Assembly (NCBI GenBank): GCA_006503475.1
Contig: RSEH01000361.1
Coordinates: 1 to 35,431 of the forward strand
Source: Stentor roeselii
Taxonomy: Eukaryota > Ciliophora > Heterotrichea > Heterotrichida > Stentoridae
Length of the DNA: 35,431 bases
Reading direction: 5' to 3'
This document shows positions 2,522 through 33,865 of this stretch, one piece after another. Position 1 is the stretch's first letter; every line of letters begins with the position of its first letter. Position numbers and translations under genes: made by a program. The notes under the pieces are model-generated. The model ran no database searches. It saw nothing but the letters and a program-made list of their open reading frames with translations, and was not told the DNA's origin.

Positions 2522-4432
2522 CTATGTTAATTCATTTTTTTCAGTCAATTGTTCAACAATAACGCTTGACAAAAATTCCTTGAATCTAAAGAAGTACTTT
2601 TTCGGAGAGATAGAACTAATGTTATTATTTTTCCTTGAAAAGCATCGTTTCCAGCATCCTTCAGCAGATTTTCTAATTCCATATTTTTGAAAAAAGTCAA
2701 TAATTGCAATCGAGTACTTTCCTTGCTTCGTATAACGATTTTCAAAAGATTGCTTATGAAACCCAACAAGTAAAGAATAGTCCATAAGCCCAGCATTTCT
2801 AAGAACTTTACAATCTTCAAAAATAGCATGAATGACTCTCTTAGAATCTTTAATAACCACTTTTTGATTGAACTTCAAAAAGTTGATATCCTTTAAAACC
2901 ACTCCATAAGGTGGGTTTTTCTTGTCAATTCCTTTAATTTTCCGATCAACAGTGCTTCCTTTCAAGTCAAAAATGACTGAATTCTCAGGTCTTCCTAAAA
3001 CATTTTCCATGATAATAAAATCTTGAGTATTCGGGTAGACCTGAAACAATCCGAGTATTCTGACGAGTCTCGACTCAGGACACTCGATAATTCTTTTCGA
3101 ATACTCAGGCAAAAAGCTTAAAAATGATTCCCTTTCACAACCTGTGATCGTTTTTATCACGATTTTTCCATCAATCGAGGAAAAAAATAATGACTCACTT
3201 TTACCTCCTGAATTGTTGATTGAAGCTAATCTTCTGATGTTTTCAAAGCAGAGAAGAGATTCAAGAAGATCATTGTTGCTGAGGTCTTGGCTTTCACGGA
3301 TAGCAGCAAATGTCCTTGGCTCGAATTCGATTATAGAGAACTTCGGGCAGAAGTAATTTTGAATGAAAGGCATGTTGAACTCAAGAGCTAAATTCGAAAA
3401 AAAAGACTTGTCAAATTTTATTTCAATTCTTTCATTTTTACTTGTTGAACTCTTCTCAAGACTTGCAGGCTCAGGTAAATTTTTAAATTTCAAAGTAAGA
3501 ACAACTAAAATTTGAACGAGAAGCCTATGTCCTAGTTTCTCAAAAGTATCAGAAATATCATCAATCGTCACTTCCTTAGGTGAACCTAAAATGCTTTTCA
3601 TCGTGTCTTCTTCGATAATTTTAATTCCTTCCAAAAGTACCCCAGTTTTTTTCCGATTCCTAGAAAAAAGTGCATAAATTTCTTTTCTTACCTTGGGATG
3701 AATAAGTCTTCCAGCCGGTACGACACTGCTGGTAAGCAATCCAAAAACCGACCCGATAACCACTTCAGTGTCAGTCGTTTGACTGTTAGTCAAATTCCTC
3801 AAAATAATAAAAAATTCTAAAATCCTGCTGATAGTTCCACAAAAAAGCACAAGAATCAAAACTTCTGAGAATTGACGAAATGTCCGAGAAGCGTAGCAGT
3901 CGATTTGCTTTCTAATCAGCAAGTAAGTGAAAAGAATGGAAAGATAAATAAAAAAGAGCAGAGCCATGTCGACCTTTTCACCGATGCTGCTCTTTGCAAT
4001 GAAGCAAGTCTCATAAGAGGAAATTCCGACTGATCCTGTTATATGGTAGCAGAGAAGGATTATTATTGAAAAGATTATGGATGAGACGATGTATATAAAG
4101 ATTCTTAATTTTGCTGATTTGTAAAGTTTTCGCCGGAATATTATACGAATTTCGCAGCATAGGAAAAGAAGTGAAAACCATCCGGTGTAGTAGCAGATTA
4201 TTGAGTAAGAACCGATTAATTTGCAGGTTTTTGGAGTGGATGAACCTGGGAATATAAAGAACCAGTGTGTGAGCAGGAGAATGTTGGAGCACATGTTTAA
4301 CACTAGAAGAGGACCTGGGTGATTTAGGAGCTTCTTTCGAAGGATGTGAAAAATGCAGACAGATAGGTTTAGAGCGAGAATAATGCAGGTAAGAAGGCAG
4401 ATGATCAGGAAGTAAATATTGTAATTTAGCAT
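2522..4432 (-). CDS. 7TM receptor fused to phosphatidylinositol phosphate kinase (GPCR-PIPK)
   Basis: The 636-residue protein has two parts. Residues 1-245 hold seven hydrophobic spans (about 5-29, 41-62, 75-98, 109-131, 154-174, 188-212, 224-243), with Cys70 and Cys143 placed for the usual extracellular disulfide. A short basic linker (HPKVRKEIYALF) follows. Residues about 290-630 form a PIP kinase catalytic domain: glycine-rich loop SGGKSESLFF with Lys427 (IVIKTI), DLKGSTVDR at 489-497, LKDINFL, MDYSLLVG at 550-557, IIDFFQKYG with Asp579, and an activation segment ending SPKKYFFRF. The key catalytic residues all appear present. Such fusions are known from Dictyostelium RpkA, oomycetes and ciliates, where they are thought to couple an external signal to phosphoinositide synthesis. 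Substrate choice (PI4P or PI5P) cannot be decided by eye. The stop is TAG. Confidence 0.95.
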   Translation of the reverse strand: MLNYNIYFLIICLLTCIILALNLSVCIFHILRKKLLNHPGPLLVLNMCSNILLLTHWFFIFPGSSTPKTCKLIGSYSIICYYTGWFSLLFLCCEIRIIFRRKLYKSAKLRIFIYIVSSIIFSIIILLCYHITGSVGISSYETCFIAKSSIGEKVDMALLFFIYLSILFTYLLIRKQIDCYASRTFRQFSEVLILVLFCGTISRILEFFIILRNLTNSQTTDTEVVIGSVFGLLTSSVVPAGRLIHPKVRKEIYALFSRNRKKTGVLLEGIKIIEEDTMKSILGSPKEVTIDDISDTFEKLGHRLLVQILVVLTLKFKNLPEPASLEKSSTSKNERIEIKFDKSFFSNLALEFNMPFIQNYFCPKFSIIEFEPRTFAAIRESQDLSNNDLLESLLCFENIRRLASINNSGGKSESLFFSSIDGKIVIKTITGCERESFLSFLPEYSKRIIECPESRLVRILGLFQVYPNTQDFIIMENVLGRPENSVIFDLKGSTVDRKIKGIDKKNPPYGVVLKDINFLKFNQKVVIKDSKRVIHAIFEDCKVLRNAGLMDYSLLVGFHKQSFENRYTKQGKYSIAIIDFFQKYGIRKSAEGCWKRCFSRKNNNISSISPKKYFFRFKEFLSSVIVEQLTEKNELT

Positions 4433-7434: not shown

Positions 7435-8289
7435 ATGGATTGCAAATATGAAACAGCTGAAACTTATTCAGTCCTCATAGCGTGTTGTTTATCTTTTATT
7501 GGTAGTTTAGGAATGATAAGTGTGATTATAATCAAAAAATTGTTCAAAAGTTATTTTTTTGAGATTCTTTTCTTCGTATCAGTTAATGATTTAATCAGAG
7601 CATTCTCTGGAATACTTTGGGAGATCCTTGATAAAAACAACAGCTCTTGCATTATTTACTCCTACATATTTCATACTCTTATTCTATCAAATTCTGTGTG
7701 GGCATCTTGCATTGCATGGACAATCTATAAAATTGTAGTCCTTGAAGAAATTGACTACAAAAAAAATTTGAAATTCTGGTTGTTAATTTCATATCTAATT
7801 CCCTTGATTCTCGGCATTTTTCCAATAATCACAAACAGCTACGCTAACCAAGGATTAGGCTGCGATTTAAAAACTGATTTGATTGGAAGTATCTGGAGAT
7901 TTAGCATTTTTTATTTTCTTATTTCAGTCAATTTGGTTGGCATCTTTATCTTGTCAGTCAAGATAATTAAAAAAATCAAAACTTTCAATAATTTTTCATT
8001 AGGCTGGATAATTATAAAAAGGGGTCTAATATATTCTATTATTATTGGAATCTGTGAAGTCCCACTTCTGACTTTAAGAATTACTCAGATATTTTTAGAT
8101 GAATGTATTGTGATACTTCTCTTGATAGTTTTCCTATCGTCTTTACAGTTGCAAGGGTTTTATAATGCAGTTGTTTTCATTTTTAACAAATCGGTTAGAG
8201 AAGCTTTAAGTATGGAATCAGATATATCTCAATATAACAGTGGGTTTAATCGGAGCTTGCACATTAGCTTTGCTTCAACAATTAATTAG
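7435..8289 (+). CDS. 7TM receptor, cAMP-receptor-like (class E) family
   Basis: This 284-residue protein has seven hydrophobic spans (about 10-33, 41-60, 73-97, 112-133, 155-177, 196-215, 222-246). A Cys at the start of TM3 (SSCIIYSY) and one in the second extracellular loop (GLGCDLKTD) match the conserved GPCR disulfide. TM7 ends LQGFYNAVVFIFNKSVREAL, matching the LQGF.N..V....K.VR pattern of Dictyostelium cAMP-receptor and cAMP-receptor-like proteins. It should sit in the plasma membrane and act through heterotrimeric G proteins; the ligand is unknown. The cytoplasmic tail is short (about 30 residues, Ser-rich). The start is the first Met, just before the charged N-terminus MDCKYETAE. It is the second 7TM gene within 3 kb, but it lacks a kinase domain and is not a close duplicate of the GPCR-PIPK. 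Confidence 0.85.
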   Translation: MDCKYETAETYSVLIACCLSFIGSLGMISVIIIKKLFKSYFFEILFFVSVNDLIRAFSGILWEILDKNNSSCIIYSYIFHTLILSNSVWASCIAWTIYKIVVLEEIDYKKNLKFWLLISYLIPLILGIFPIITNSYANQGLGCDLKTDLIGSIWRFSIFYFLISVNLVGIFILSVKIIKKIKTFNNFSLGWIIIKRGLIYSIIIGICEVPLLTLRITQIFLDECIVILLLIVFLSSLQLQGFYNAVVFIFNKSVREALSMESDISQYNSGFNRSLHISFASTIN

Positions 8290-10285: not shown

Positions 10286-12385
10286 ATGAATGGCCGTAGT
10301 CCAAAACACGTCCACACGAAAAGTTCTTCAATGCTGCGAGACCTAGTCGACGCTCGTCCGTCCTACTCTCGGCAAACAACAATGGACCTTCGCAACTCAG
10401 TAATAAACCAGACATCTCCTCGCCGTTCAATAAACAATTCGCCAGTTTTCAGTCCTCGTCTGTCAATCTTCGGTCACGGTGAAGACATTATAAATTCCTT
10501 AGAGTCTCAACTTCAAGACCTTCGAAGACGAATTCTTGAGATGTACAATGCGAAAATTTTGAATATTAAAGTAGAGCAGTCTTCAGTGATCTCGATAATC
10601 GACAACTATCTGAACACTTTGAACCTGAAATACGAGGAAGATTGTGTGAGTACTGACTTCGTGCACACGATCCTCACTTATTCAGAACTTCTTGAAGTCT
10701 TCGCGATTCCTCTTGAACTGCAAGATCACGAATCGCTTGAAGTCCATGTCAGAGATGCAGGGATTTACCAGGGGCGACTTCTAGACGGGAAAGAAGAAGG
10801 CCAGGGAGTGATGGTTTACCGAAACCGCAACAAGTATAAAGGAAAGTTTGTTGGTGGTTTAAGACATGGGCAGGGAAAATGTATTTACAGCAATGGAGAC
10901 GTCTTTAAAGGGAATTGGGTTAATGACAAGCCACATGGAAAAGGAATTTTCAGATACATGTCTGGAATCATTCAGGACTACGACGATAGTCCTACCCTCG
11001 AATTCGACAGCATTTCAAAAGAAGAGGAAAAATACGAAGGCGAATACGCGAATGGCTTGAAACATGGAAAAGGTGTCTGTCTTTACCCGAGTGGCGAAAG
11101 GTATGAAGGGGAATTCGCATTTGGACTTAGACATGGCAAAGGAATCAGCACCTTTCCTAATGGAGAGAAGTACGAAGGCGAGTGGGTCAACGATAAAAGA
11201 CACGGCACTGGAAAAATGTTCTTACCTGATAAAAGCATCTATGAAGGCGACTTCTCTGATGACTTGATGAACGGCACTGGAGTCATCACCCAACCTGATG
11301 GCGCTAAATACATCGGCGATATTGTCGATGGCAAAAAAAGTGGCAAGGGCGTCGAAGAACTCCCTGACGGTGAAAAATATGAAGGCTCTTTTTTTAACGG
11401 CCTTAGAAGTGGCAAAGGCTTTTTGATATCGAAAAGAGGAAACAAGTATAATGGAGAATTTTTGAACGGTAAAAAACATGGAAAAGGAAATATAAACTAT
11501 TCGAATGGAAATAAATTCGAAGGGGATTTCGAAAATGGGAATATTAATGGACTTGGAGTTTTTATTTATAAGAACGGCGACAGATATGAAGGAAATTGGG
11601 AAAATGATCAGGCTCATGGACGTGGAAGGTTCACTTGGAAAGATGGGGATAAGTATGAAGGTGATTATAAGGCGGGTATGAAAACGGGATTTGGCATTTA
11701 TACTTATAAAGATGGGTCTAAGTATGAAGGCAATTGGAAGGCTGATAAAAGACATGGACAGGGGTCTTTGTCTATTCTTCCTTCTGGAGGGTATATTGGA
11801 TTCTGGGAAAATGATAAAAAACACGGATCGGGAGTCATGACTTGGCCTGATGGCGACCGTTATGAAGGCGAGTTTAAACTCGGTTATCTTCATGGCGAAG
11901 GAGTCTATCATTTCAAAAATGGAGACAAATACTCCGGCTCCTGGAGCCAAAGCGAAATGACCGGATTCGGGGTTCTAATCAAGAAAAGCGGTGAAAAGTA
12001 CGAAGGAGACTTCGTGAAAAGTGAAAAGCACGGAAAGGGGATGCTTTTTTTTGTAAATGGTGACAAATTCAAAGGAAACTTCGAGAAAAACAAGAGAAGT
12101 GGACAAGGCGTGCTTTACGAGAAGAGCGGAAACGTGTATGACGGGCAGTGGAACGACGATTTGAGGCATGGAATCGGAACTTACAAATGGACCAATGGGA
12201 ATTATTACAGTGGTCAGTGGTTCGAAAACGAAATGCAAGGCAAAGGAGTGCTCGAGCAAAAAGGAATCGCCAAATATGAGGGAGAGTGGCGTAAGGGCAA
12301 AATGCACGGCACGATATTGAAGACTCTTGCAAATTCGCAAAAGGAAACCATAGTTTATATCAAAGGAAAGATAGTTAATGCGTGA
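10286..12385 (+). CDS. MORN-repeat protein with 22 units
   Basis: The 699-residue protein has a Ser/Arg-rich N-terminus (1-65, with several SPR-type sites), a helical section (66-145) and 22 successive MORN units from residue 160 to about 690. Each unit is close to 23 residues of the form KYEGEF.NGLRHGKG....PNGE. Unit 3 carries an acidic insertion of about 20 residues (IIQDYDDSPTLEF...). The last unit is degenerate and is followed by a short tail ending GKIVNA. MORN repeats form elongated beta-hairpin rods and are found in cortical and ciliary scaffolds and fused to PIP kinases in plants. No enzyme domain is present, so a structural or membrane-associated role is inferred. Codons are richer in G+C than in most of the window, suggesting good expression. 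The start is the first ATG after the C-rich leader; the stop is TGA. Confidence 0.93.
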   Translation: MNGRSPKHVHTKSSSMLRDLVDARPSYSRQTTMDLRNSVINQTSPRRSINNSPVFSPRLSIFGHGEDIINSLESQLQDLRRRILEMYNAKILNIKVEQSSVISIIDNYLNTLNLKYEEDCVSTDFVHTILTYSELLEVFAIPLELQDHESLEVHVRDAGIYQGRLLDGKEEGQGVMVYRNRNKYKGKFVGGLRHGQGKCIYSNGDVFKGNWVNDKPHGKGIFRYMSGIIQDYDDSPTLEFDSISKEEEKYEGEYANGLKHGKGVCLYPSGERYEGEFAFGLRHGKGISTFPNGEKYEGEWVNDKRHGTGKMFLPDKSIYEGDFSDDLMNGTGVITQPDGAKYIGDIVDGKKSGKGVEELPDGEKYEGSFFNGLRSGKGFLISKRGNKYNGEFLNGKKHGKGNINYSNGNKFEGDFENGNINGLGVFIYKNGDRYEGNWENDQAHGRGRFTWKDGDKYEGDYKAGMKTGFGIYTYKDGSKYEGNWKADKRHGQGSLSILPSGGYIGFWENDKKHGSGVMTWPDGDRYEGEFKLGYLHGEGVYHFKNGDKYSGSWSQSEMTGFGVLIKKSGEKYEGDFVKSEKHGKGMLFFVNGDKFKGNFEKNKRSGQGVLYEKSGNVYDGQWNDDLRHGIGTYKWTNGNYYSGQWFENEMQGKGVLEQKGIAKYEGEWRKGKMHGTILKTLANSQKETIVYIKGKIVNA

Positions 12386-19111: not shown

Positions 19112-20035
19112 TTAACTAGCTTTGTCCTTTTGCTCTTTCTGTTCTTTCTGTTCTTTCTCCTTCTTCTCCTCCTTCTTATCCTTCTTCTCCTTCTTTGCAT
19201 CACTAACCCTTCTATATTTAATCAACTTCTGAAGTTTCCCATTTTCCCACAACCCTTCATCAAATTCCCAGAAGTCAGAGCTTTTAAAAGAATACTTTCC
19301 CATTCCATTCTGCCTTCCATCCTTAAACTCTCCCTGAAAGATGTCCCCATTGGCATACTTGACAATAGCATCTCCGTCCATTTTATCATTCTTGAAATTT
19401 CCAGTGTATTCAGCGCCATCACATCCAATATACCTTCCAAATCCTTCTTTCAAGCCATTAACCCAATTTCCAATGAAAAAAGATCCACTATTATAAATCA
19501 TTGCGCCATATCCTTCAAACATTTTATTGTTAATCGTTCCAACATAAGTCCTATCTTCCCTTTTCACTGTAGAAAAACCTGTAAAAGACTTCTTTTCAAA
19601 GAACCCGATAAATAACTTGTCGTTGTCTTTGATTTCTTGATAACTTGGCGGGTTTGCAGGTGGAAGGACTGAAGGAGGTTCTTTTTGAAGAAGAGTCTCA
19701 GTCATTTTTTTAAGATTCTCTAAAATCTTGAGTTTTGCAAGAAAATTTTCTTGTTGGATCTGGTCATCGAATTTCTGCTTAACGCAGGCGATTTTCATGG
19801 AAAATGAATCTAGATGGAGTTTTATTGTCTCTATGGTTCGAGTTGCTTGTCTTTTTAGATCTGCTGGCTCTAGCAGGATCACTGCTTGTTCTTCTGATTC
19901 TGGGGCTTCTATTGGGACTTTTATTTCTTCTACTTGCATTTCTGATCCGTTGAGCTCTAAGAAGCTGATGATATCGGATGACTTTACGTTGTAGGTTTGG
20001 CTTAGTCCTTTTGGGTATACGTTGAGATCTGCCAT
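19112..20035 (-). CDS. MORN-repeat protein (tandem paralogue 1)
   Basis: The 307-residue protein has a non-repetitive N-terminal half with predicted helix (IETIKLHLDSFSMKIACVKQKF, LKILENLKKMTETL) and a Pro-rich linker (PPSVLPPANPPSY). Five MORN-type units follow at about residues 143-265, including TYVGTINNKMFEGYGAM, FFIGNWVNGLKEGFGRYIG and IFQGEFKDGRQNGMGKY. It ends in a Lys/Glu-rich low-complexity tail of about 30 residues. It aligns along the MORN part with the gene immediately upstream (shared FFIGNW..G.KEGFGRYIGCDGA), so the two arose by tandem duplication. The paralogue lacks the Lys/Glu tail. A scaffold or membrane-associated role is inferred from the family only. Its start is followed upstream by a short G/T-rich flank. 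Confidence 0.88.
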   Translation of the reverse strand: MADLNVYPKGLSQTYNVKSSDIISFLELNGSEMQVEEIKVPIEAPESEEQAVILLEPADLKRQATRTIETIKLHLDSFSMKIACVKQKFDDQIQQENFLAKLKILENLKKMTETLLQKEPPSVLPPANPPSYQEIKDNDKLFIGFFEKKSFTGFSTVKREDRTYVGTINNKMFEGYGAMIYNSGSFFIGNWVNGLKEGFGRYIGCDGAEYTGNFKNDKMDGDAIVKYANGDIFQGEFKDGRQNGMGKYSFKSSDFWEFDEGLWENGKLQKLIKYRRVSDAKKEKKDKKEEKKEKEQKEQKEQKDKAS

Positions 20036-20455: not shown

Positions 20456-21274
20456 CTAATCTTTCCTTCTTAAATCGTTGATAACAGTCATTTTCCCATT
20501 TTTCCATAGTCCTCTATCATATTCATAATAATCAGACTTCGCATATCTATACTCTCCTTGTCCATTCTGAACATCATTACAGAAATTTCCATGAAAAATA
20601 TCCCCATTAGGATATTTCACAAACCCTAATCCACTCTTCTTTCCATCAACATAATTCCCTGTGAACTGAGCTCCATCACATCCAATATACCTTCCAAAGC
20701 CTTCCTTTCGTCCATCCTTCCAATTTCCAATGAAAAACGAGCCGTTTTTATGTATTAAAGCTCCATGTCCCTCATATTTCATATCAACCACTTGCCCGAT
20801 GTAGGTCACGTTTTGACTTCTAACAGCAGCGAAGCCAAAAAGGGATTTCTTGTCATAGTAACCCAAATAATGCTTTTTTTCGAAATTTGCCTCTTGAAAA
20901 GGAGAAAAATCTCTTGGGAAGTAAAATTTATCATTCACGATTTTTTTCAAAAAAATGTCGAATTTCTTTAAATTTTTTAGTTTTAGAGAAAAATCTTTTG
21001 GGTCAGATTGGGACTGGCTTGTAAGATCTTGAGTCAGGTGAATGATTAATGAGTTAAAGCTGAGCTTTAACGACTCTAGAAGACTTTTTAACTCATTTTT
21101 CGATTCTTCGTTAGAAGTTTCATGACGGTCTGTGTTGATGTCGGTAGGAATGACTTGCTTTATTTCTTCTTCTATTGTTTCGTGTTTAAAGGGTTTGTAG
21201 TTTGGTATCTTTGTTGAAATTATTCTATATTCAGTTTTGCTTAGTCTGTTAGACGTGAATTCGTTATCTTCCAT
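20456..21274 (-). CDS. MORN-repeat protein (tandem paralogue 2)
   Basis: The 272-residue protein has an acidic/charged N-terminal third, a helical segment (LKSLLESLKLSFNSLIIHL, then LKLKNLKKFDIFLKKIV), and five MORN-type units at about residues 135-260: HYLGYYDKKSLFGFAAV, TYIGQVVDMKYEGHGAL, FFIGNWKDGRKEGFGRYIG, QFTGNYVDGKKSGLGFV, IFHGNFCNDVQNGQGEY. It closely parallels the downstream neighbour, including the signature RYIGCDGA, and both genes point the same way. N-terminal halves differ much more than the MORN parts, so the duplication is not recent. The codon composition here is more AT-rich than in paralogue 1, hinting at lower expression. Confidence 0.86.
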   Translation of the reverse strand: MEDNEFTSNRLSKTEYRIISTKIPNYKPFKHETIEEEIKQVIPTDINTDRHETSNEESKNELKSLLESLKLSFNSLIIHLTQDLTSQSQSDPKDFSLKLKNLKKFDIFLKKIVNDKFYFPRDFSPFQEANFEKKHYLGYYDKKSLFGFAAVRSQNVTYIGQVVDMKYEGHGALIHKNGSFFIGNWKDGRKEGFGRYIGCDGAQFTGNYVDGKKSGLGFVKYPNGDIFHGNFCNDVQNGQGEYRYAKSDYYEYDRGLWKNGKMTVINDLRRKD

Positions 21275-22685: not shown

Positions 22686-24272
22686 ATGCGAAAAAATCAT
22701 ATTCGCCCAGGAGTTTATCGTATCAGACTCTCCCCCACTTCAGAACAACACCCATTAGTTTTGGGCCTTGGTGCTTCGAACAAAGCTGAACCAATTCACA
22801 ACTCAGACTTTACTTTTGTAGCTGTTCATAAAGAGGACAGCTGTTCATATGACTGGCTTCTAGAGGCCGGTACCCAACCAGGTACCTTCAGAATTAAGAC
22901 AATGGGCCATATCAGCAGCAGTCACCCTACCGGCTGGGTACTGAGCACATGGCCCTCTCACGAAGCAGCACTTAATAAAGACTTAATCAGAGTTATAGTC
23001 CATTCATCCGAGCACTTTTCTTGTGACTGGCGAATTGTTCCTGGAAAAACAACTGGCAGTTATCGAATTATTTCTTGTGAAGATAGGGATAAACAACAGT
23101 TTAATGAATGGGAACTCTGGCATGATGGGCGCGATGAAGTCTTTAGCTGGGTTTTTGTTTATAAAGGAGAAAGTTGGCAGTGTGAATGGACTTTTGAAAG
23201 ACTTAAAAAGAGAATTAGACCTGGTGTTTATAGAATTAAAACTTGTGGACATACTAGAGGAGAACAACCCCCTGGATGGAGTCTTTGTGCTTGGAATGCT
23301 TTTGGAGCTGAGAGAGACTCTCAGTCTAGTTGGGTGGCTGTTCATGAAAATGAATACTGGAGTTGTTACTGGCTAATTGAACTAGGAACTCAACCTTGTA
23401 GCTTCCGAATCAAAACGATGGGTCATATTTATGGTCGTCAACCTGCAGGCTGGGGACTCAGCGCATGGCACTTAAAAGACTCAATTCGCGATGAAGTCTC
23501 AAGCAGAGTCGCCGTGCATTCAGGTGACCACTGGCCTTGTGACTGGCAAATTGTTCCTGGAAAAAAAAGTGGCAGTTATAGAATTATTACTTGTGGACAT
23601 GATGAAGGTCAACAACCTGCTGGCTGGGGACTCAGTGCCTGGCATTCAGGGACTGGACGTGATGAAGTCTCCAGCTGGGTCTTTGTTCATGAAGGTGATT
23701 GCTGGCCTTGTGACTGGAATATTGAAAGACTGAATAATAGAATAAGGCCAGGGATTTATAGAATTAAAACTTGTGGACATATTCAAGGAGAACAACCTCT
23801 TGGGTGGGGACTAAGTGCTTGGCATCGCCCTGGAGATGAAAGGGATTCTGAATCGAGTTGGGTTGCTGTTCACGAAGGAAACCACTGGCCTTGTAGCTGG
23901 CAAATTGAACCTGGAACCCTTCGTGGAACATACAGAATAAAGACGATGGGACACCCTGAAGGTAGCCAGCCCTCTGGATGGGGCCTAAGCGCATGGCACA
24001 TTAACGAAGCAGTGCGCAATGAAATATCAAGTAGAGTTGCAGTGCATTCTAATGACCACTACGCATGTGATTGGTTAATTGTGCCTGGAAAGATACCTGG
24101 CACTTATCGAATCATTACCTGCGGACATGCTGAGGGTCAACAACCTGCTGGATGGGGACTCAGCGCTTGGCATGCTCATGGAGCTGAGCGTGATGAAGTC
24201 TCCAGCTGGGTTCATGTTCATTTAGGGGATCATTGGCCTTGTGATTGGATTTTTGAGCGAATCGAGTCATAA
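22686..24272 (+). CDS. Trp/His-rich protein of nine ~58-residue units in three triads
   Basis: The 528-residue protein is built entirely of nine units of about 57-59 residues. The consensus is G.YRIKTCGH..GQQPAGWGLSAWH......RDEVSSWVAVH.GDHWPCDW.IE. Units alternate in a strict abc order set by their openings: RIRPGVYRI (a), TQPGTFRI (b), KKSGSYRI (c). The triads therefore cover about residues 6-175, 177-352 and 353-528. A 175-residue block with internal threefold symmetry suggests a beta-trefoil or similar lectin-like fold, three per protein; this is inference. The first triad is the most diverged and has lost several Trp and His. There is no signal peptide or membrane span, yet each unit keeps one or two Cys and many Trp, as carbohydrate-binding repeats often do. 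I cannot match it to a named family. The stop is TAA. Confidence 0.85.
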   Translation: MRKNHIRPGVYRIRLSPTSEQHPLVLGLGASNKAEPIHNSDFTFVAVHKEDSCSYDWLLEAGTQPGTFRIKTMGHISSSHPTGWVLSTWPSHEAALNKDLIRVIVHSSEHFSCDWRIVPGKTTGSYRIISCEDRDKQQFNEWELWHDGRDEVFSWVFVYKGESWQCEWTFERLKKRIRPGVYRIKTCGHTRGEQPPGWSLCAWNAFGAERDSQSSWVAVHENEYWSCYWLIELGTQPCSFRIKTMGHIYGRQPAGWGLSAWHLKDSIRDEVSSRVAVHSGDHWPCDWQIVPGKKSGSYRIITCGHDEGQQPAGWGLSAWHSGTGRDEVSSWVFVHEGDCWPCDWNIERLNNRIRPGIYRIKTCGHIQGEQPLGWGLSAWHRPGDERDSESSWVAVHEGNHWPCSWQIEPGTLRGTYRIKTMGHPEGSQPSGWGLSAWHINEAVRNEISSRVAVHSNDHYACDWLIVPGKIPGTYRIITCGHAEGQQPAGWGLSAWHAHGAERDEVSSWVHVHLGDHWPCDWIFERIES

Positions 24273-24558: not shown

Positions 24559-26907
24559 ATGGGAAACTGCGCCTGCTCTTCAAGGCAAAGAATCACTTAC
24601 AAATGGGGTGCTTTCAAGATAACTGATAAAAAACCCAGATCATTTGAAGATCTAGAAGAGATTGAGGAAGGCTATCAACTTTTATGCAACAATGAGGTTT
24701 TAACTGCTGATAATTTTGATGATATTATGAATAGAGAGAAACATATAACTCTAAATTTAATACAAGTTAAGAGAAATTCAATACAATATGAGAGAAATTT
24801 AGAGGATATTTCTTTCTCTATTAATATTCTCCCTACAATCATTAAAAAAAAATTAAAATTAACTCGAGAAAATAGTTTAAAGATAAAACCGAGAAAAAAT
24901 AAATTAGAAAAACTTGTCTCAAAGCATGAACAAGCTATAGATATTTATAATTACCCAAATATTCAAGATGATCAATATACAGCTTTAATAGTAAACAAAT
25001 ATGAACGAATAGAAATAAAAATGTTAATATTTGAAGGTGGTAAACTTGTGATTCCTCAAAATTACTTGCATCTTGAAGTAAAAAATATTCACTTCAATGT
25101 GTATATTTTCAAAAATAATAAAAAAATATGTAAAAAGAAAGTTAAAATTCATTAATATAATTCAAGAAATGTGCTTATTCCAAATAGAATTTGATGAAAA
25201 CGATAATAAAACCATATTAGAAGAAATAAATAAAAATAATCAACAGTCTCAATCTCCAATAAATATTGATATAGGTGGTTCATATACATTTTTAATAGAA
25301 AATTTACAAATGAGCTTTAAATTACTCGATGATGGTTACCTAGAAATAATATTACAAGAGCAACAACAAGATATTCTTAAGTCTATAAAAACACCATCAG
25401 CAATATGTGATATATATAGAAGGATATTAGGAATAATCGTAGATATAAAACAAAACAAAATAAAAATCCTTTTCATTTCAAACATAATGTTAAATCCGGT
25501 GAGCACTAAAATAGATAGCATTCCAAGTAAAATTGAAAAAGTTTATAAAAAATACATAGTGACTCTGTTAGTAGATGGTACACCTTACTTAAAAACAATC
25601 TTAATCCATCGAGATTTAATCATTCTTCCAAGTTCCTTAAGATCTAAAAAACTTGCAATCTCAAACGAAGGTAGAATCTTCGAATTAAAATTAAAAAAAT
25701 TACCTGAAAATTTTTATAAATATTTCAAAGACATTGATTTTTCAGTATACGAGATCATTCACAATCAAATCGAAGACTTGGAATGTATCAATGAAAATAT
25801 TATCAGTGATCAAAAAAATACTGACCCAAGTGCTGAAATTTATAGCAATATAGGACCTTTGCAACTTGAAAGAGGCCATGATAGTCAAAACATGCAACTT
25901 GCAATACCAGATCAAGCAAATAACATAATTTTAGAAGATAGTATAAGAGGATGTTTTACATTTAGTCAAAACAAAGTCGCTTCAATGATTTTTAATATTC
26001 AGAACAACAAAATTCAAGTATTAAAAATAAAGGATATCCTTCATATATTAAAAATAATACTATTACCTCAAATTAATATAGGAACCCCAGGTGCCCGTCA
26101 ATTCCCAGAGTTTCCTTATCCAGTTCCTCCAGATGACAATTACAAACTTGAGCCATTAAATTATTCATATTCAGCAGCAGGAAATAATATTATCACTTAT
26201 GAGTCAAGAGATTCACTATTCAAAAAAATACCCAACTTTGAACCAAAAGAAACAATAGGAGGAACTTTCACTACTACTAATAAAGGTTTGATTTTTATCA
26301 GAGAAAAAAAAGCGATTTTAATTAATGAACAAGAAAATATTAAACTTAAAAATCTTAAAAGCAGTCATTTTCATCATTGCGCAGTTTGGCATAATTATTT
26401 CATTTATGCTATTGGGGGAAAATATACGAAAAGTGTGGAATGTTATGATTTTAATAGAAAGAGATGGAGTGAAGTTGCTCCATTACCTTTAAATATTGAA
26501 AATGCTGCTGCTTGCTCAGCTGATCGGTTTATTTATGTGTTTGGAGGGGAAATTAACACCTCAGTTCAAATAGAATTTATAAATTTGATGAGAATTGGAT
26601 TATGCTTGATGTGAACCTTCCGTTTAGCTTGAGGAATATGGGAGTTATTTATCATAAGGAAAAGTTTGTAGTGTTTGGAGGCATGGGAAATAAACTTTTT
26701 AATGGAAAATGGTTCACTCTTGATAAAGACTTAAAATTGGTTACTGAAGCTGATTTTCAAATGACGGGATTTTATAGTCATAAGGCTGTTGGAAGGATTG
26801 ATGATAAATTTTCAATCGTTATAGATGAGGATAATGCACTTGAATATGAAAATGGATTATTTATAAGAGTTTGCACCCAGACAAATCCCATTAATCATAT
26901 TAATTAA
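24559..26907 (+). pseudogene. Acyl-anchored kelch protein, copy A, two frameshifts
   Basis: Three overlapping open segments (24559-25155, 25082-26614, 26569-26907 in effect) match, in order, the two intact paralogues to the right, but two single-base shifts separate them. The first is in an A-rich run near 25125-25145: one extra A in TGTAAAAAGAAAG would explain it, since dropping it gives a frame running into LKFINIIQEMCLF. The second is at GAATTTATAAA near 26575-26585, where one missing T would explain it: on the other side the frame reads YKFDENWIMLDV, matching paralogue IFKFDEDW. No 15- or 16-nt GT-AG intron fits either site. The N-terminus MGNCACSS carries the same acylation signal (Gly2, Cys4, Cys6). 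The C-terminus is kelch-like (CYDFNRKRWSEVAPLP, FIYVFGG, FVVFGG). The codon composition is far more AT-rich than in copies B and C. It may be a decaying copy or contain homopolymer errors. Confidence 0.78.
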
Positions 26908-27080
26908 GAAATCATTCATAATTTAATCTTATATATTCAGTCTCAATCAATAATTTTTAATTTTAACTAGTATCCACTTTTGTTATAGTATGAAAAAAAT
27001 TCTATTTTTTCTCTAATAAAAACTTTCATCACCCCAAGCAAGACTTACAACCCAAACCTAATCCTAAACTAATAATCTAA

Positions 27081-29387
27081 CTAAATCTCAGCCACAACCC
27101 TCTTAAAATACCCATCACGATATTCCATCATTTCATTCTGACTAATAACAATCGAAAAGGTTCCATCAAAGACCCCAACAGCCTTGTTATTAAACTTTCC
27201 AAGAGTCTTAAGTTCTCCAGTAGTCTTCAACTCAGCCTGTTCATCAAGTAAAAAATATTTATCACAAAGACTATTTTTTCCTCTCCCTCCAAACACGACG
27301 AACTTTCCACGATCATAAAAAACTCCTTGATTTCTAAGAGACATTGGAAGACTTTGACTCAATTCTTCCCATTCCCCTCGAAACCTTAAAATACTTTTCA
27401 AGACTTTCCCTTCAAATTCTCCTCCCATCAAATAAATAAAATCTCCAGAAGAACAAATTGCGAAATTTTTTCTGTAATTTGGAAGATTTTCAATTTTTTT
27501 CCATGTCTTCAAAGAAAAGTCAAAAAATTCTACCTCTGGGTTGTTTTCACCACTGACGACAAATAAGAAATTTTGATGCCAGACTGAAGAATGAAAAAAA
27601 TGTTGAGAATTTAAAGTGGGAAGATTTTGGTCTTCTTCTTGGATGATTATTGAAAAGTCTCCTGCAACGAAGGCTAATCCATGAGGAGTCGTTGTGAAAG
27701 ACCCTCCTTTTTTTAGATTTAAATGCTTTTCGATTACTACCGGGCGGTAAAGGCAAGGACAGTATTTTATCAGTTTGTTGTTTTCAAAGAAGTACGAAAA
27801 GTTTTCAGGAGACAAGTGATGGAATCCCTCTGAATGTTCAGTGATATCCAAGTGGAACTCCCCAGCAACATTTTCATCAAGATCTGCTTCTTGGAATGAT
27901 TTTTTCTTGTTTGCTAGAATTATTTCAGATTCTTCAGAGTCTTTTTTTTTAAATTCGAATTTTTTTTCGTATGGTGGAGAATTTTTGAATGATATCGCAC
28001 TTGGAGATATCGCCGGGTAGTTCTTGTGAACTTTTGAGGGAAGTTCAGGAGAGTCTTGAAGGTCCAGCATTTTTTTACTGATTTTTATGATTTCTAGTTT
28101 TTCTCTACAAACCTGCACTGAAAGGGTAGAAACTTCATTTTCAACAATCTTTAAAATGATTCCTCCGAGTTTATTTCTTGAAAAGTAAGGAAGTCCTAAT
28201 AACTGATGATCAAGATTTTTAGAGACTTTAAAAGTAAGTTCGTCTTTTCTCTTCATGTTAAAAACTGCTTCATGGCCGTAGAAAACTTTTGATTTTTTCG
28301 AAGTACCTGAAACCAGGTCTTCATCAAAAAAAATTTCTAAAGTTTCTTCAATTCGAAAAACTGAAAAATCATGAAGTTCAAAAAAATCTTGTTTTTCATC
28401 AAGTTTCAACTTTTTCATTCCAATGACTTGAGACTGCAAATGAAGAGTCAAGTTTTCTTCAGCATTTTCCAGAAGCTCTTTAGGAATAATGATAAATTGT
28501 CTGTCAATAACGACCCAAGGCAATATAAAATTTCCATTTTTATCTTTGATTATTCCGAAGTACTGCTGAAAACTCTGCATCTCTTCAGGTAAAAAAAAAT
28601 GATCAGGTCTTAAAATAATTTCTTCAGAATTTCTTAAAAGTTCTCGACTTGTCACGACTTCCGCATGTGAAACGTCTAAAATTTTTAAAACTATTCCTTT
28701 AAACTTTCCTTCTGTGAATAAAAAGTCACCTTCTGAGTATTCTTCAAAAATTGTTTGTTTTGATGAAAAAATATTTTCAGCCTCAATAAAGAGCTGGATG
28801 AAGTTTTCATTATTTTTCAAGGAAAGTTCATCATCAGTCGAAAGAAGACTTTCAGAAAGACCTGATTTAGAATCGTTTAACATAAAATAATGAATTTTTT
28901 TGAAAGTGTTTAAAAATCGCAATTTTTGTGCAGGTTTTTTTGAACCTTGGAATGAACAAAGCAGGTTTTTTGGGATTTTTTTCAAGATTTTTTGGTGAAT
29001 ATGAAGAAAACCTCGAGAAATCAAGAAAGATTTTACCTCTTGTGAGTCATTTTTTATCTTGCAGAGGTATTTTTTTAGTGTTTCTGGAATGTTTTTTGTT
29101 GAATTCGATTCTAGCTTTGATGTAGGAGTTTTCGTTAAAGAGTCCTTGATTTTTATACGTAACGGGCGGTTTTTATTCAGATGTTCCTGGTAAGAAGTGT
29201 TATTTGAAATTCGCTGATCTTCTATGAAAACTTCGAAATCTGTGATTTTTAAAAAAGACTTGATCTCTGCTTTCAGCTCGTTGAAAGATTCAGGGATATT
29301 CGGCACTTTCGTAACTTGAGACTTGTAGATAAAAGTGTGAAAGTTTTCTGGACTTTTCGAATGTTTTACTGAGCAACAGGCTCCCAT
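27081..29387 (-). CDS. Acyl-anchored kelch protein, copy B
   Basis: The 768-residue protein begins MGACCSVKHS, a dual acylation signal: Gly2 for myristate, Cys4/Cys5 for palmitate. Residues about 22-82 look like a small ubiquitin-like or PB1 fold (FEVFIEDQRI...RPLRIKIKD). The middle, about 105-435, shows two blocks that recall degenerate trypsin-like domains: RGFLHIHQKIL...GKFKGIVLKIL, then NFILPWVVIDRQFIIIP...DFSVFRI...LLGLPYFSRNKLGGIILKI. The usual catalytic His and Ser positions are not conserved, so any such domain would be a pseudo-enzyme. Residues about 560-768 hold kelch-type repeats (FFDFSLKTWKKIENLP, FIYLMGG, KFVVFGG, then EYRDGYFKRV), likely a propeller. An inner-membrane-face scaffold is inferred. 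It is convergent with copy A (173 bp) and in tandem with copy C. Confidence 0.85.
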   Translation of the reverse strand: MGACCSVKHSKSPENFHTFIYKSQVTKVPNIPESFNELKAEIKSFLKITDFEVFIEDQRISNNTSYQEHLNKNRPLRIKIKDSLTKTPTSKLESNSTKNIPETLKKYLCKIKNDSQEVKSFLISRGFLHIHQKILKKIPKNLLCSFQGSKKPAQKLRFLNTFKKIHYFMLNDSKSGLSESLLSTDDELSLKNNENFIQLFIEAENIFSSKQTIFEEYSEGDFLFTEGKFKGIVLKILDVSHAEVVTSRELLRNSEEIILRPDHFFLPEEMQSFQQYFGIIKDKNGNFILPWVVIDRQFIIIPKELLENAEENLTLHLQSQVIGMKKLKLDEKQDFFELHDFSVFRIEETLEIFFDEDLVSGTSKKSKVFYGHEAVFNMKRKDELTFKVSKNLDHQLLGLPYFSRNKLGGIILKIVENEVSTLSVQVCREKLEIIKISKKMLDLQDSPELPSKVHKNYPAISPSAISFKNSPPYEKKFEFKKKDSEESEIILANKKKSFQEADLDENVAGEFHLDITEHSEGFHHLSPENFSYFFENNKLIKYCPCLYRPVVIEKHLNLKKGGSFTTTPHGLAFVAGDFSIIIQEEDQNLPTLNSQHFFHSSVWHQNFLFVVSGENNPEVEFFDFSLKTWKKIENLPNYRKNFAICSSGDFIYLMGGEFEGKVLKSILRFRGEWEELSQSLPMSLRNQGVFYDRGKFVVFGGRGKNSLCDKYFLLDEQAELKTTGELKTLGKFNNKAVGVFDGTFSIVISQNEMMEYRDGYFKRVVAEI

Positions 29388-29565
29388 TTATGGAAAAATT
29401 TAAATCATTGGAATGAAGAAGATATCTAATGAATCAATAACAAGAAAAGAAGGACTTAACGAAAATATTCGATTAAAAATATCTGAGTAATTACTTTAAA
29501 CATTATTTGATACAAGATTTCTAAATATTTTAACTATTTTTATCTTTCTAAATATTTTAACTATT

Positions 29566-31839
29566 CTAATTTACCCCGATATTTACTTGACTAAAAAAGC
29601 CGTCCTTATACTCAAGCGCATGTTTTTCACTAAAAACAAAAGAATAAACTCCATTCAAATATCCAAAAGCCTTCCGACTAAACTTCCCTTTAACTAAAAG
29701 TTCCCCAGTTTCCAAATGATTAAACTCAAGATCAAAAACAAAATAACGATCATTCAAAGTATTTTCACTTTCCCCAGCAAACAATATAAACCGATCCCTA
29801 TCAAAAATAACTCCCAAATTTTTCAATAAAACAGGTAAAACCACCTTAAGTTTAACCCAATCCTCATCAAACTTAAAAATATCTCTGGAAATAACTCCAT
29901 TTTTTCCCCCACCCATCAAAAACAAAGACATTCCCGAAGAACAAACAGCAGCTTCTTGTCGATCTTCAGGAAGACTTGGACAATTTATCCAAAATCTTTC
30001 TTTAAAATCGAATTTTTCGACTTTTTTATTATTTTCTCCGCTGATTACAAAAAGATTCTCTTGATGCCAAATAGAACAATGGAAAAAATGAGGAGAATTT
30101 AACTTGGGCAGGACTTCATCTTCTTCTTTAATAATCAAGGCGATTTCACCGACGATGTAAACCAATCCCGCTGGAGTCGCTGTGAAAGACCCGCCTTCTT
30201 GCATAGTTAAAAACTTTTCAACAATGACAGGGTTGTAAAGTTCTGAAGAATATTTAATGATTTTGTTGTTAATAAATGTGTAAGAATAGCACGTTGCAGG
30301 ATTTTCAGGCATTTCTAATGACATTGAAAAATTTCCTTCAATTTCCACCTCGTTTATTCCAGCTTCATGAATTTGTTTGTTGTAAACTTGAAAGTTTTCT
30401 TCAACTGGAGTTTCTCCTGGAGTTACTAAAATTTGCTTTTCAGGGACTTGAGGAGGGTTTTTGAATTGAATTTCACGAATACTGACCCTGTACTGAGGTT
30501 GAGAGTTTTTTTCTCGGGCAGAGGCGATTTTATTCATCAAGGTGATGATAGTGAAAATATCTAGAAAAGTCACTTGAAAGCCTAAGACCCGGGTGACTAT
30601 TCCTGCAAGTTTTGAATGAGAAAAAAGCATATACCCGAAAAACAAATGATTTATTTTTTCATTTATAATCAGTTCATTTTCATTGAATTTCTTCAGGTCA
30701 AAAGTCTTCCCGTCGCCATATGGAAGTTTAGCTCTTTTCTTGATTTTACCTGAAAATGACTCGGGTAAGGAAAAATCAAGATTTTTTTCGAATTTATAAA
30801 CAGAAAATTCTAGTTTTGAGAAGTTTTTATCAGGAGTGTCTATTTTTGTTATGGTTAATTTGTGTAACTTGCCTCGGAGTGATAATTGAAGGACTTCAGA
30901 ACTGGAGATTTCTTGAGGGATTAATACGAAGTACTCGCTTATCACGAACCATGGGAATAGAAATGAACCGTTTTCGTCGAGGACTGAGCCGAGATAATCA
31001 TTTATTTGATTTTCGGGCTGGTCTGGAAGGTTGTAAGTTGAAGAAGGATTTTTTATTTCACTTGAAATTTCAACAAGTAAACTCTGAAAAACGATTTCTG
31101 CTGAAAAAGGGTCAAAAATCTTGATTAAAACACCTAAAAATACTCCTTGTCCAAATAAATAATCTCCAATTTTCAGCCTGTCAAATGTTTTAACCTTAGA
31201 ATTCAACACATTTGGGTTATTTTCGCTTCTTTCAACAGAAACCAACTCATGATCCACCCAAATTTTTAAATTATTTTCTTTTTGTAAAGCTTTTTCAATG
31301 AACAATTTTTTAAGATCTGATGATTTTTTTGTAATTATCTTGAAAAAACAGATTTCTTGAAAAGTGTTGAGATAAGAAAGGCTTCTGATGATTTTCTTTC
31401 TGGACATGAACTCACATTGCAAGTCTTTTGGAATTCCTCGGCTGAAGTAGGAAAGACTTATGAAGATGAAACCTTCACCGATTATTAATGCTCTTAACTC
31501 TAAGAATTTTGCTGTCACTTTGCAGAGGTTTTGATGGTACTCTGGGCAGATGTTCTTGCAAAAATCGGTCTCGGGCTCGAAGGTTTTTAGAGATTTGGAA
31601 GGATTTTGGAGCTCTGTTATTGTGAAATGAGCTCGGCGTTTTAAAACTTTTGAGTATGTTTCTTGGTTGTTTATTGGAATGCCGTTGGCGGAGAGGGTGA
31701 AATCTTTAATTTGATATTCGGATTTAATTAATGCTAAGACTTTTCGATACTCACTCGGAAGTTGTTTTCTATCGATATTCTTAACAGTTCCATTGTAAAT
31801 AAGTTGATCTTTTCCACTCCCACAGAAGCAAGCACCCAT
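29566..31839 (-). CDS. Acyl-anchored kelch protein, copy C
   Basis: The 757-residue protein starts MGACFCGSGK (Gly2, Cys4, Cys6) and aligns with copy B throughout. It has an N-terminal small domain (DFTLSANGIPINNQ...HFTITEL); a first middle block opening with GEGFIFISLSYF and closing with YLFGQGVFLGVLIKI; a second block with SFLFPWFVISEYFVLIP, EFSVYKF and FGYMLFSHSKLAGIVTRV; and a C-terminal kelch region (KFDFKERFWINCPSLP, LFLMGGG, RFILFAG). GEGFIFI resembles the G.GF.IS strand of trypsin-like proteases, but the His, Asp and Ser positions are replaced (Glu in EFSV, Phe at the Ser site), so no activity is expected. The number of differences from copy B shows an old duplication. The codon use is AT-rich but the frame is intact over 2.3 kb, so it is under selection. 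Confidence 0.85.
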   Translation of the reverse strand: MGACFCGSGKDQLIYNGTVKNIDRKQLPSEYRKVLALIKSEYQIKDFTLSANGIPINNQETYSKVLKRRAHFTITELQNPSKSLKTFEPETDFCKNICPEYHQNLCKVTAKFLELRALIIGEGFIFISLSYFSRGIPKDLQCEFMSRKKIIRSLSYLNTFQEICFFKIITKKSSDLKKLFIEKALQKENNLKIWVDHELVSVERSENNPNVLNSKVKTFDRLKIGDYLFGQGVFLGVLIKIFDPFSAEIVFQSLLVEISSEIKNPSSTYNLPDQPENQINDYLGSVLDENGSFLFPWFVISEYFVLIPQEISSSEVLQLSLRGKLHKLTITKIDTPDKNFSKLEFSVYKFEKNLDFSLPESFSGKIKKRAKLPYGDGKTFDLKKFNENELIINEKINHLFFGYMLFSHSKLAGIVTRVLGFQVTFLDIFTIITLMNKIASAREKNSQPQYRVSIREIQFKNPPQVPEKQILVTPGETPVEENFQVYNKQIHEAGINEVEIEGNFSMSLEMPENPATCYSYTFINNKIIKYSSELYNPVIVEKFLTMQEGGSFTATPAGLVYIVGEIALIIKEEDEVLPKLNSPHFFHCSIWHQENLFVISGENNKKVEKFDFKERFWINCPSLPEDRQEAAVCSSGMSLFLMGGGKNGVISRDIFKFDEDWVKLKVVLPVLLKNLGVIFDRDRFILFAGESENTLNDRYFVFDLEFNHLETGELLVKGKFSRKAFGYLNGVYSFVFSEKHALEYKDGFFSQVNIGVN

Positions 31840-32653: not shown

Positions 32654-33865
32654 CTATCTTACCCCGAACTCCTCATTCCATCTCAAATAAAACTCAATCG
32701 AATTCTTCTGAACACTAGGCCTAATAGCCCTTAACGCATTTTCAAAGTTTTTTTTCCCAATATGAAAAGTTTTCCCACTTTTCAATTCCTTATCACTAAG
32801 CCCCCTAACCGAGTCAAGAGCTGCTTCCTTACACAAGTTGCTCAAGTCACTTCCAGAGTACCCATCAGTAGCTTTAACAACATCTCTAAGTTCCTTACTA
32901 GTAAGCTTTGAGTTGTTATCCAGCAAGTTCTGAATAAGTAAAGTCCTAGTTTCACTATCAGGCAAAGGAATATAAATCCTTTTCGTCAATCTCCTTCTAA
33001 CAGCCTCGTCAAGTTCCTGAGGCCTGTTAGTAGCGGCGATGACCAAAACACGATCATCGCCGTTTGACCCGACGCCATCCATTTGAACTAAAAATTCAGT
33101 TTCCAGTCTTCTCGAAGCCTCATGTTGCCCTTCGCCTCGAGCCCCGAGTATCGAGTCGACTTCATCAATGAAAATGACGGAAGGTTGAAATTTCCGAGAA
33201 ACTGAAAAAAGTGCTCTAACAAGTTTTTCAGCATCTCCGTAGTTTTTAGAAGTAAGAGTCGCGGAACTGACACTTAAAAATGTTGCTTGACATTCAGAGG
33301 CCACTGCCTTGGCTAGCATTGTTTTACCTGTGCCAGGAGGACCGAAAAGCAAGATGCCCTTGGGAGGGGCTCGGAGGCCAGTGTAGATATGTGGGTAGAG
33401 AGTTGGGCGAATTATTGCTTCTTGTAGGATTTCTTTTGCTGTTGATAGACCTGAGATACTTTCCCAGGAGACTTTTGGAGACCTTTCGATTATTTCTTGC
33501 TCGATCATTGCTTCGTAGGAGTTGGAAGACTCGCGTTGGGGTGGGCGGCTTGAGACTCGAGTACTTGATCGGTTGTTGACTTTTAAGGATGATGGTGGAG
33601 AGATTAGGTTGCTTACTTGTTTTACCTCTTCTTCGTAAAAGTTGTCGCGTCTTGTTTGACAGTCTTCTGCCTTTTTTAGAAGGTTCTCGATTATTGCTTC
33701 TATTTGCACACGATATGCTCCGGTCTGTTGACTTCGAAGGATAAATAACTGGTTTAGGGCACTTTTGTAGTACTCTAGGGCGTTTGTATACCTCTTGCCA
33801 TCTGACTTTTAAATACCATACAAAAGGTTGGCAGATCTGATAAGTTCGTTCAGACTTTGATCCAT
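32654..33865 (-). CDS. Spastin-like MIT-AAA ATPase (microtubule severing), one 15-nt intron
   Basis: Exons 33865-33817 and 33801-32654 join across a 15-nt intron to give 398 residues. The short first exon plus the start of exon 2 complete an MIT domain (MDQSLNELIRSANLLYDGKR, then ALEYYKSALNQL, ending near residue 70). After a Ser/Arg-rich linker comes a spastin-type AAA module: SWESISGL, GLRAPPKGILLFGPPGTGKT (Walker A at 170-177), VIFIDEVDS (Walker B), ASRRLETEFLVQMDG, AATNRPQELDEAVRRRL (sensor 1 and arginine fingers) and TDGYSGSDL. The C-terminus FYLRWNEEFG matches the spastin end AYIRWNKDFG. Such ATPases form hexamers that pull tubulin tails through a central pore. Odd point: pore loop 1 reads LTSKNYGDAEK where spastin and fidgetin have K-Y/W-V-G, so the aromatic residue has moved by one. 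There is no membrane hairpin before the MIT domain. Confidence 0.93.
33802..33816 (-). other. 15-nt spliceosomal intron in the spastin-like gene
   Basis: On the minus strand it reads GTATTTAAAAGTCAG: GT start, AG end, A at position 10. If retained it gives an in-frame TAA after LLYGI. Removal restores NLLYDGKRYTNALEYY, a typical MIT helix pair. A 16-nt alternative ending at AAAAG shifts into a frame that soon stops. Confidence 0.93.

Follow-up and report, generated by a model that had tools for sequence, protein, structure and literature searches.

Three related genes, their relatives and their terminal modules

The window analyzed here, that is, the whole stretch of 35,431 nucleotides from Stentor roeselii (contig RSEH01000361.1, assembly GCA_006503475.1), harbors three mutually related genes at positions 24559-31839, as an earlier note on this DNA had claimed. 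The products, denoted copies A, B and C, share one domain order: an acylation-type start, a PB1-like domain, a middle region in which the His and Ser of trypsin-like proteases are lost, and a C-terminal kelch region. S. roeselii is a heterotrich; these ciliates serve in studies of cortical patterning and regeneration. Copies B (27081..29387, minus strand; 768 amino acids, starting with MGACCSVK) and C (29566..31839, minus strand; 757 amino acids, MGACFCGS) are adjoining single open frames with 35% identity.

Copy A (24559..26907, plus strand), which starts with MGNCACSS and resembles B, lies on the strand opposite to B and C; its coding sequence falls into three pieces, each in a different frame (24559-25128, 25130-26569 and 26569-26904, with the stop at 26905-26907), a feature absent from the earlier note. 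The copy is therefore broken, misassembled or interrupted by unusual introns, and probably is a decaying gene or reflects assembly errors. The G+C content at its third codon positions is 0.20-0.26, versus 0.29 in B and 0.32 in C, which is compatible with decay but is no proof of it. Tiny introns were rejected as the source of the frame changes: neither 25040-25190 nor 26500-26640 contains a GT..AG stretch of 15 or 16 bases. Longer GT..AG stretches exist near both sites (~25129 and ~26569), so that an unusual intron is still a candidate explanation. The open reading frames (ORFs) of the window end with all three standard stop codons.

When the genome (44.4 Mb in 522 contigs; C- and L-numbers are locus labels in it) was searched with B as the query, the top-ranked matches were B, C, C402, C86, two parts of A, C190, C15, C340, C274 and C435. 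The anchored-type family thus comprises at least ten loci, two of which are broken, namely A and C435 (L011, L089), a relative of C86 with in-frame stops, the start of which could not be read. Four members (C402, C190, C15 and C340) have one middle block only. Six further genes (C34, C514, C429, C85, C213 and C189) are unanchored and encode a pseudo-trypsin domain preceding kelch repeats. With ten anchored-type loci and six unanchored genes, the genome-wide count that the earlier note had called for yields a list of about 16 genes, and the trio, as judged by similarity, is part of a radiation in this ciliate. Single-protein queries with B, which reach close relatives only, gave 27 pattern matches in the prokaryotic contig set and 4 in the viral contig set, none of which was confirmed; a prokaryotic or viral origin was accordingly set aside as a candidate.

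N-myristoylation combined with palmitoylation follows the rule of Gly2 with Cys at position 3 or 4. This combination is present in A (MGNCACS, 24559..24579), B, C and five more of the nine family loci with a readable start, where eight starts are MGxC or MGC and that of C15 is MSC. The patterns proposed previously hold in the translations: MG.C.C fits A and C, which have Cys at residue 6, and MG.CC fits B, which has Ser there. Among the 89 ORFs of at least 250 amino acids at the examined loci, at least 10 start with MGxC or MGC; seven of these are family members, leaving 3 of 82 others. These counts are lower bounds, the 82 may include a piece of A as well as the C15 member, and the loci were picked by similarity and hence are no random sample of the genome. 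The frequency of this start in the family is, by these counts, above chance, and a lipid anchor is predicted from the motif. Two short kelch ORFs, L030 (C235) and L032 (C83), start with MGNCC and MGSSSS, so acylation-type starts occur also on kelch proteins without a protease module.

The small domain that follows the start (A, 24586..24774; B, residues 16-80, 29148..29342; C, residues 11-80, 31600..31809) had been taken for a ubiquitin-like fold, a guess that can now be sharpened to PB1-like. The aligned N-terminal domains of eight family members matched 12 PB1-type proteins of the same genome, 11 of which score above the PF00564 cut-off, with an hhalign E-value of 7.9e-6 over 59 columns; no reversed profile did better than 0.3 and no unrelated profile better than 0.17, and none of 200 column shuffles reached the score. 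The order predicted for residues 16-80 of B, strand-strand-helix-strand-strand-helix-strand, is compatible with PB1, and the predicted local distance difference test score (pLDDT) of the model is ~63-75 from residue 31 onward and 42-49 in the first hairpin. Against this assignment, the Pfam model itself (PF00564) matches neither B nor C, even with E-values up to 1 allowed, in a genome with at least 14 PB1 matches above the Pfam cut-off. Of the hallmarks of PB1 domains, which are the acidic OPCA motif and a conserved lysine, the acidic loop is reduced in both B (EDQRISNN) and C (NGIPINNQ). The profile similarity thus identifies the domain as PB1-like at low confidence.

At the other end, kelch motifs and a propeller are both found. 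In B, the propeller (residues 526-768, 27084..27812) was detected by Pfam, and kelch structures fill the fold-search rows listed for the full-length model, a search that accordingly reports on the propeller. The equivalent region of C (~residues 515-755, 29575..30297) has a Pfam match below the cut-off that is backed by alignment with B, and that of A (26141..26877), where the frame shifts at ~26569, is delineated by similarity to B.

The middle region and a proposed function

The earlier note had reported trypsin-like strands in two blocks of the middle regions of B and C, which map to residues 105-250 (block 1; B, 28638..29075; C, 31090..31527) and to residues 273-439 of B (28071..28571) and 270-444 of C (30508..31032) (block 2); block 2 of A (25544..26053) was delineated by hidden Markov model (HMM) search and alignment. 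The quoted strands are all present, with the corrections that GEGFIFIS in block 1 is found in C only (the equivalent in B is SRGFLHIH) and that the Pro of the last strand, GLPYFSRNKLGGI in B and GYMLFSHSKLAGI in C, is specific to B. DFSVFRI in B and EFSVYKF in C are strands of block 2. The single domains of C190 and C340 also read as trypsin-like, with GTGFLI or ATGFML near the beginning, GSPLISSDNKLLGVY or GSPLFSDSGHLIGVY toward the end, and the nucleophile gone.

The loss of the active site, claimed previously for B and C, is borne out by an alignment of the family domains with 15 trypsin-like domains of the genome, 14 of which have both His and Ser. Seven domains were compared (block 2 of A, B and C, and the domains of C402, C190, C340 and C15): all lack a His at the position of His57, and none carries Ser, Cys or Thr in place of the nucleophile. 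The nucleophile is replaced by L in B, F in C, R in A, L in C402, V in C190, P in C340 and V in C15, the variation that is expected once selection for catalysis is gone. The Asp102 position retains an acid in most of these domains (D in B, A and C340; E in C and C402; ambiguous by one residue in C190 and lost in C15). The retained acid could be a sign of an active protease of an atypical kind, the catalytic residues of which have moved or are unusual, but with neither nucleophile nor His in seven of seven domains we consider this highly improbable and rejected a catalytic role of the middle. Combined with the loss of His and Ser and the variable replacements, the acid instead indicates that catalysis was lost and the fold kept, so that block 2 would be a dead homolog and no peptidase. 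In the unanchored set, Ser is present in one of six domains and His in none. The exception in the reference set, L059 (C247), a trypsin-like ORF above the Trypsin_2 cut-off with no His, Ser or kelch, is another dead protease in the genome.

The relationship to trypsins is traced through the single-block relatives since, in direct comparison, block 2 gave null results with active trypsins and with the unanchored set (hhalign 0.13-0.92). Block 2 of B, C, A and C402 matched the C190/C340/C15 domain at 2.6e-5 over 129 columns, and this domain in turn matched two sets of five trypsin-like proteases of the genome at 2.6e-4 (23 columns) and 1.6e-3 (21 columns, with the displayed alignment at the nucleophile loop). 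Shuffling the columns 200 times in each of eight comparisons never gave a score as high as the observed one, and most reversed or unrelated profiles scored 0.06 or worse. With an E-value limit of 10, a joint profile of the seven domains picked out just one of 177,635 PDB sequences: a serine protease, aligned along positions 10-139 of 164 with E 0.021. Among the relatives, three of the six unanchored proteins have weak Trypsin_2 matches (best 5.4e-4), and scores against trypsin Pfam models, where shown, are below the cut-off of 27.6 bits (C190, 12.9; C34, 19.7); in the PDB search with the unanchored-set profile, 16 of 19 rows are proteases of the staphylococcal Spl, exfoliative or glutamyl type (E 0.017-1.4). 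In the model of the middle region of C, block 2 forms a chymotrypsin-type double barrel, for which the fold-search rows listed are trypsin-like. The P0004 blocks and the P0007 middle region showed no clear hhalign link to block 2 or trypsins, save for P0004 block 1 with block 2 (0.0031).

Other results weigh against this relationship. Some hhalign controls come close: 0.0069 for the reversed single-block set and 0.019 for kelch, both against the single-block set, and 0.027 for one reversed active set against the C274 middle. With the block 2 HMM, the E-values are 0.015 for the C190 domain, 0.12 and 0.88 for block 1 of B and C, respectively, and 0.15 for a shuffled protein; with the single-block HMM, block 2 of B is found at 0.013, versus 0.13 for a reversed protein. 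In the profile search of PDB sequences, block 2 alone has no match, and the single-block list is topped by interferon gamma (0.009); 6 of the 60 matches listed, including interferon gamma and CBS proteins, are not proteases, so that these E-values, taken alone, are near noise. Neither PF13365 nor PF00089 matches B or C when E-values up to 1 are allowed. The model of B and that of the C middle region, built from 4 and 3 sequences, have low confidence (mean pLDDT 45 and 50; predicted template modeling score 0.32 and 0.39), and the Foldseek matches have template modeling scores of 0.34-0.54 by target and root-mean-square deviations of 4.6-6.7. The low pLDDT, the null result of the direct comparison, the lack of a PDB match for block 2 and HMM scores close to those of shuffled proteins would all fit a different beta-rich fold, not related to proteases, with the weak links and the model being misleading. 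We nevertheless regard such a fold as unlikely because transitive profiles, PDB profile matches, Trypsin_2 matches in relatives and trypsin-like fold-search rows among the matches listed agree with one another, and, at low confidence, the model assigns block 2 to the trypsin fold.

Whether the core is double, as suggested in the earlier note, is a separate issue. In both blocks, six strands are predicted in the first half, and block 1 matches block 2 with hhalign E-values of 3.3e-4 and 1.7e-3, a score that none of 200 shuffles equaled. The matches of the block 2 profile to block 1 are colinear (residues 105-238 of B to positions 2-143; residues 115-243 of C to positions 17-143), with the noise-level E-values given above. 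The fold search run on the models, by which a double barrel could have been refuted, supports one at low confidence for block 2 of C and gave no fold match for block 1, so that a double pseudo-protease core is likely but not demonstrated, with block 1 a probable, diverged pseudo-trypsin. The shortness of the link between the blocks (31 columns), the pLDDT below 37 almost throughout the second half of block 1 in both models and the single block of four relatives would also fit a core with one pseudo-protease, block 2, and a small, unrelated beta domain as an extra spacer; given the colinearity, the matching strands and the shuffling result, we deem this version possible but the less probable one.

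Taken together, these observations suggest that A, B and C are members of a family of ciliate adaptors that are tethered to the membrane, have no enzymatic activity and consist of an anchor, a PB1-like domain, a dead trypsin middle and kelch repeats, an interpretation to which we assign a probability of roughly 0.6. Because the number of middle blocks varies among the paralogs (one or two) whereas the order of anchor, PB1-like domain, middle and kelch is constant, the family has the appearance of related membrane adaptors in which the middle is the changeable part. Judging by the motif, Gly2 would be myristoylated and nearby cysteines palmitoylated, holding the protein at the membrane, and the PB1-like domain could pair with other PB1 proteins of the genome. 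The one or two trypsin-fold domains lacking His and Ser, block 1 being the less certain of these, may be retained as peptide-binding or spacer modules that perform no cleavage, and the kelch propeller would bind a cargo or target, the ligand being putative. Most economically, the family would act at the membrane as a tethered scaffold or as a receptor, with peptides or partially cleaved proteins as its ligands. More tentatively, the radiation might represent a repertoire of membrane adaptors that has expanded and is known to date from this ciliate alone, with single or tandem dead trypsins reading peptides between the lipid anchor with the PB1 docking domain and the kelch propeller; together with a second, soluble branch, it would amount to an intracellular, combinatorial pseudoprotease recognition system.

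Other genes in the window

Next to the trio lies an AAA ATPase gene (32654-33709, minus strand, plus ~210 bases upstream) with GTG as the listed start. Removal of a 15-base GT..AG stretch, one of two candidates (15 and 17 bases), yields an upstream ATG and the start MDQSLNELIRSANLLY, which looks MIT-like. The 15-base intron is probable; in Stentor coeruleus, introns typically are 15 (92.8%) or 16 bases long (PMC9505925).

On the other side of the trio, the gene at 22686-24272 (plus strand) encodes nine units of ~58 residues of the type RIKTCGHxxGxQPxGWGLSAW...VHxGDHWPCDW, with no Pfam family above the cut-off. The gene at 2522-4432 (minus strand) combines a PIP5 kinase domain (by Pfam) with a preceding part that, by eye, resembles a seven-helix receptor, and a separate seven-helix protein similar to cAMP receptors is encoded at 7435-8289 (plus strand). 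MORN-repeat proteins were detected at 10286-12385 and 20456-21274 by Pfam and at 19112-20035 by eye; the latter two are neighbors and look paralogous.

Comparison with known systems

All modules of the family are of known kinds, and their combination is new as far as searched. No description of the layout was found in the literature covered, which included few subscription journals and in which the papers retrieved looked unrelated by their titles and the openings of their abstracts, nor was there a confirmed match to B in the prokaryotic or viral contigs; because the literature was limited in this way and ciliate protein databases were outside the scope, the claim that the layout is undescribed stands provisionally.

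Within the genome, the unanchored genes share with the trio the dead trypsin domain followed by kelch but have no MGxC start and no PB1 domain that could be seen by eye, and their trypsin similarity is clearer. Another set of genes shares PB1 followed by kelch (L071 and L079 above the PF00564 cut-off, L080 just below it, L028 and L034 by eye); in these, neither a protease module nor an MGxC start was seen. Unlike kelch adaptors of the KLHL/KEAP1 type, B and C have no BTB or BACK match in Pfam at E up to 1.

With respect to domain combination, FAM111A and FAM111B are similar in that domains of the ubiquitin-type fold precede a trypsin-like domain in one intracellular protein (UBL-UBL-Trypsin_2, where UBL is a ubiquitin-like domain). 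The accessible part of the source describes FAM111 proteins as retaining the catalytic triad, mostly with two UBLs, and mentions neither kelch nor an acylation start (PMC9798293), in contrast to the single PB1-like domain, the lost triad and the kelch repeats found here. The PDB profile search with the unanchored set lists FAM111A chains as well, albeit weakly (E 0.66).

Trypsin-fold dead proteases are mostly known as secreted or bacterial proteins. One of these, MamO, is a metal-binding biomineralization factor of bacteria and, to our knowledge, has neither PB1 nor kelch. Its structures are among the fold-search rows, and it is described as a repurposed serine protease (PMC4794232), a trypsin fold retained, as we propose for the trio, for another job. 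If this proposal is correct, the family is a natural experiment in which a protease, having lost the triad in each copy examined, was turned into an intracellular binding module joined to PB1, kelch and a lipid anchor.

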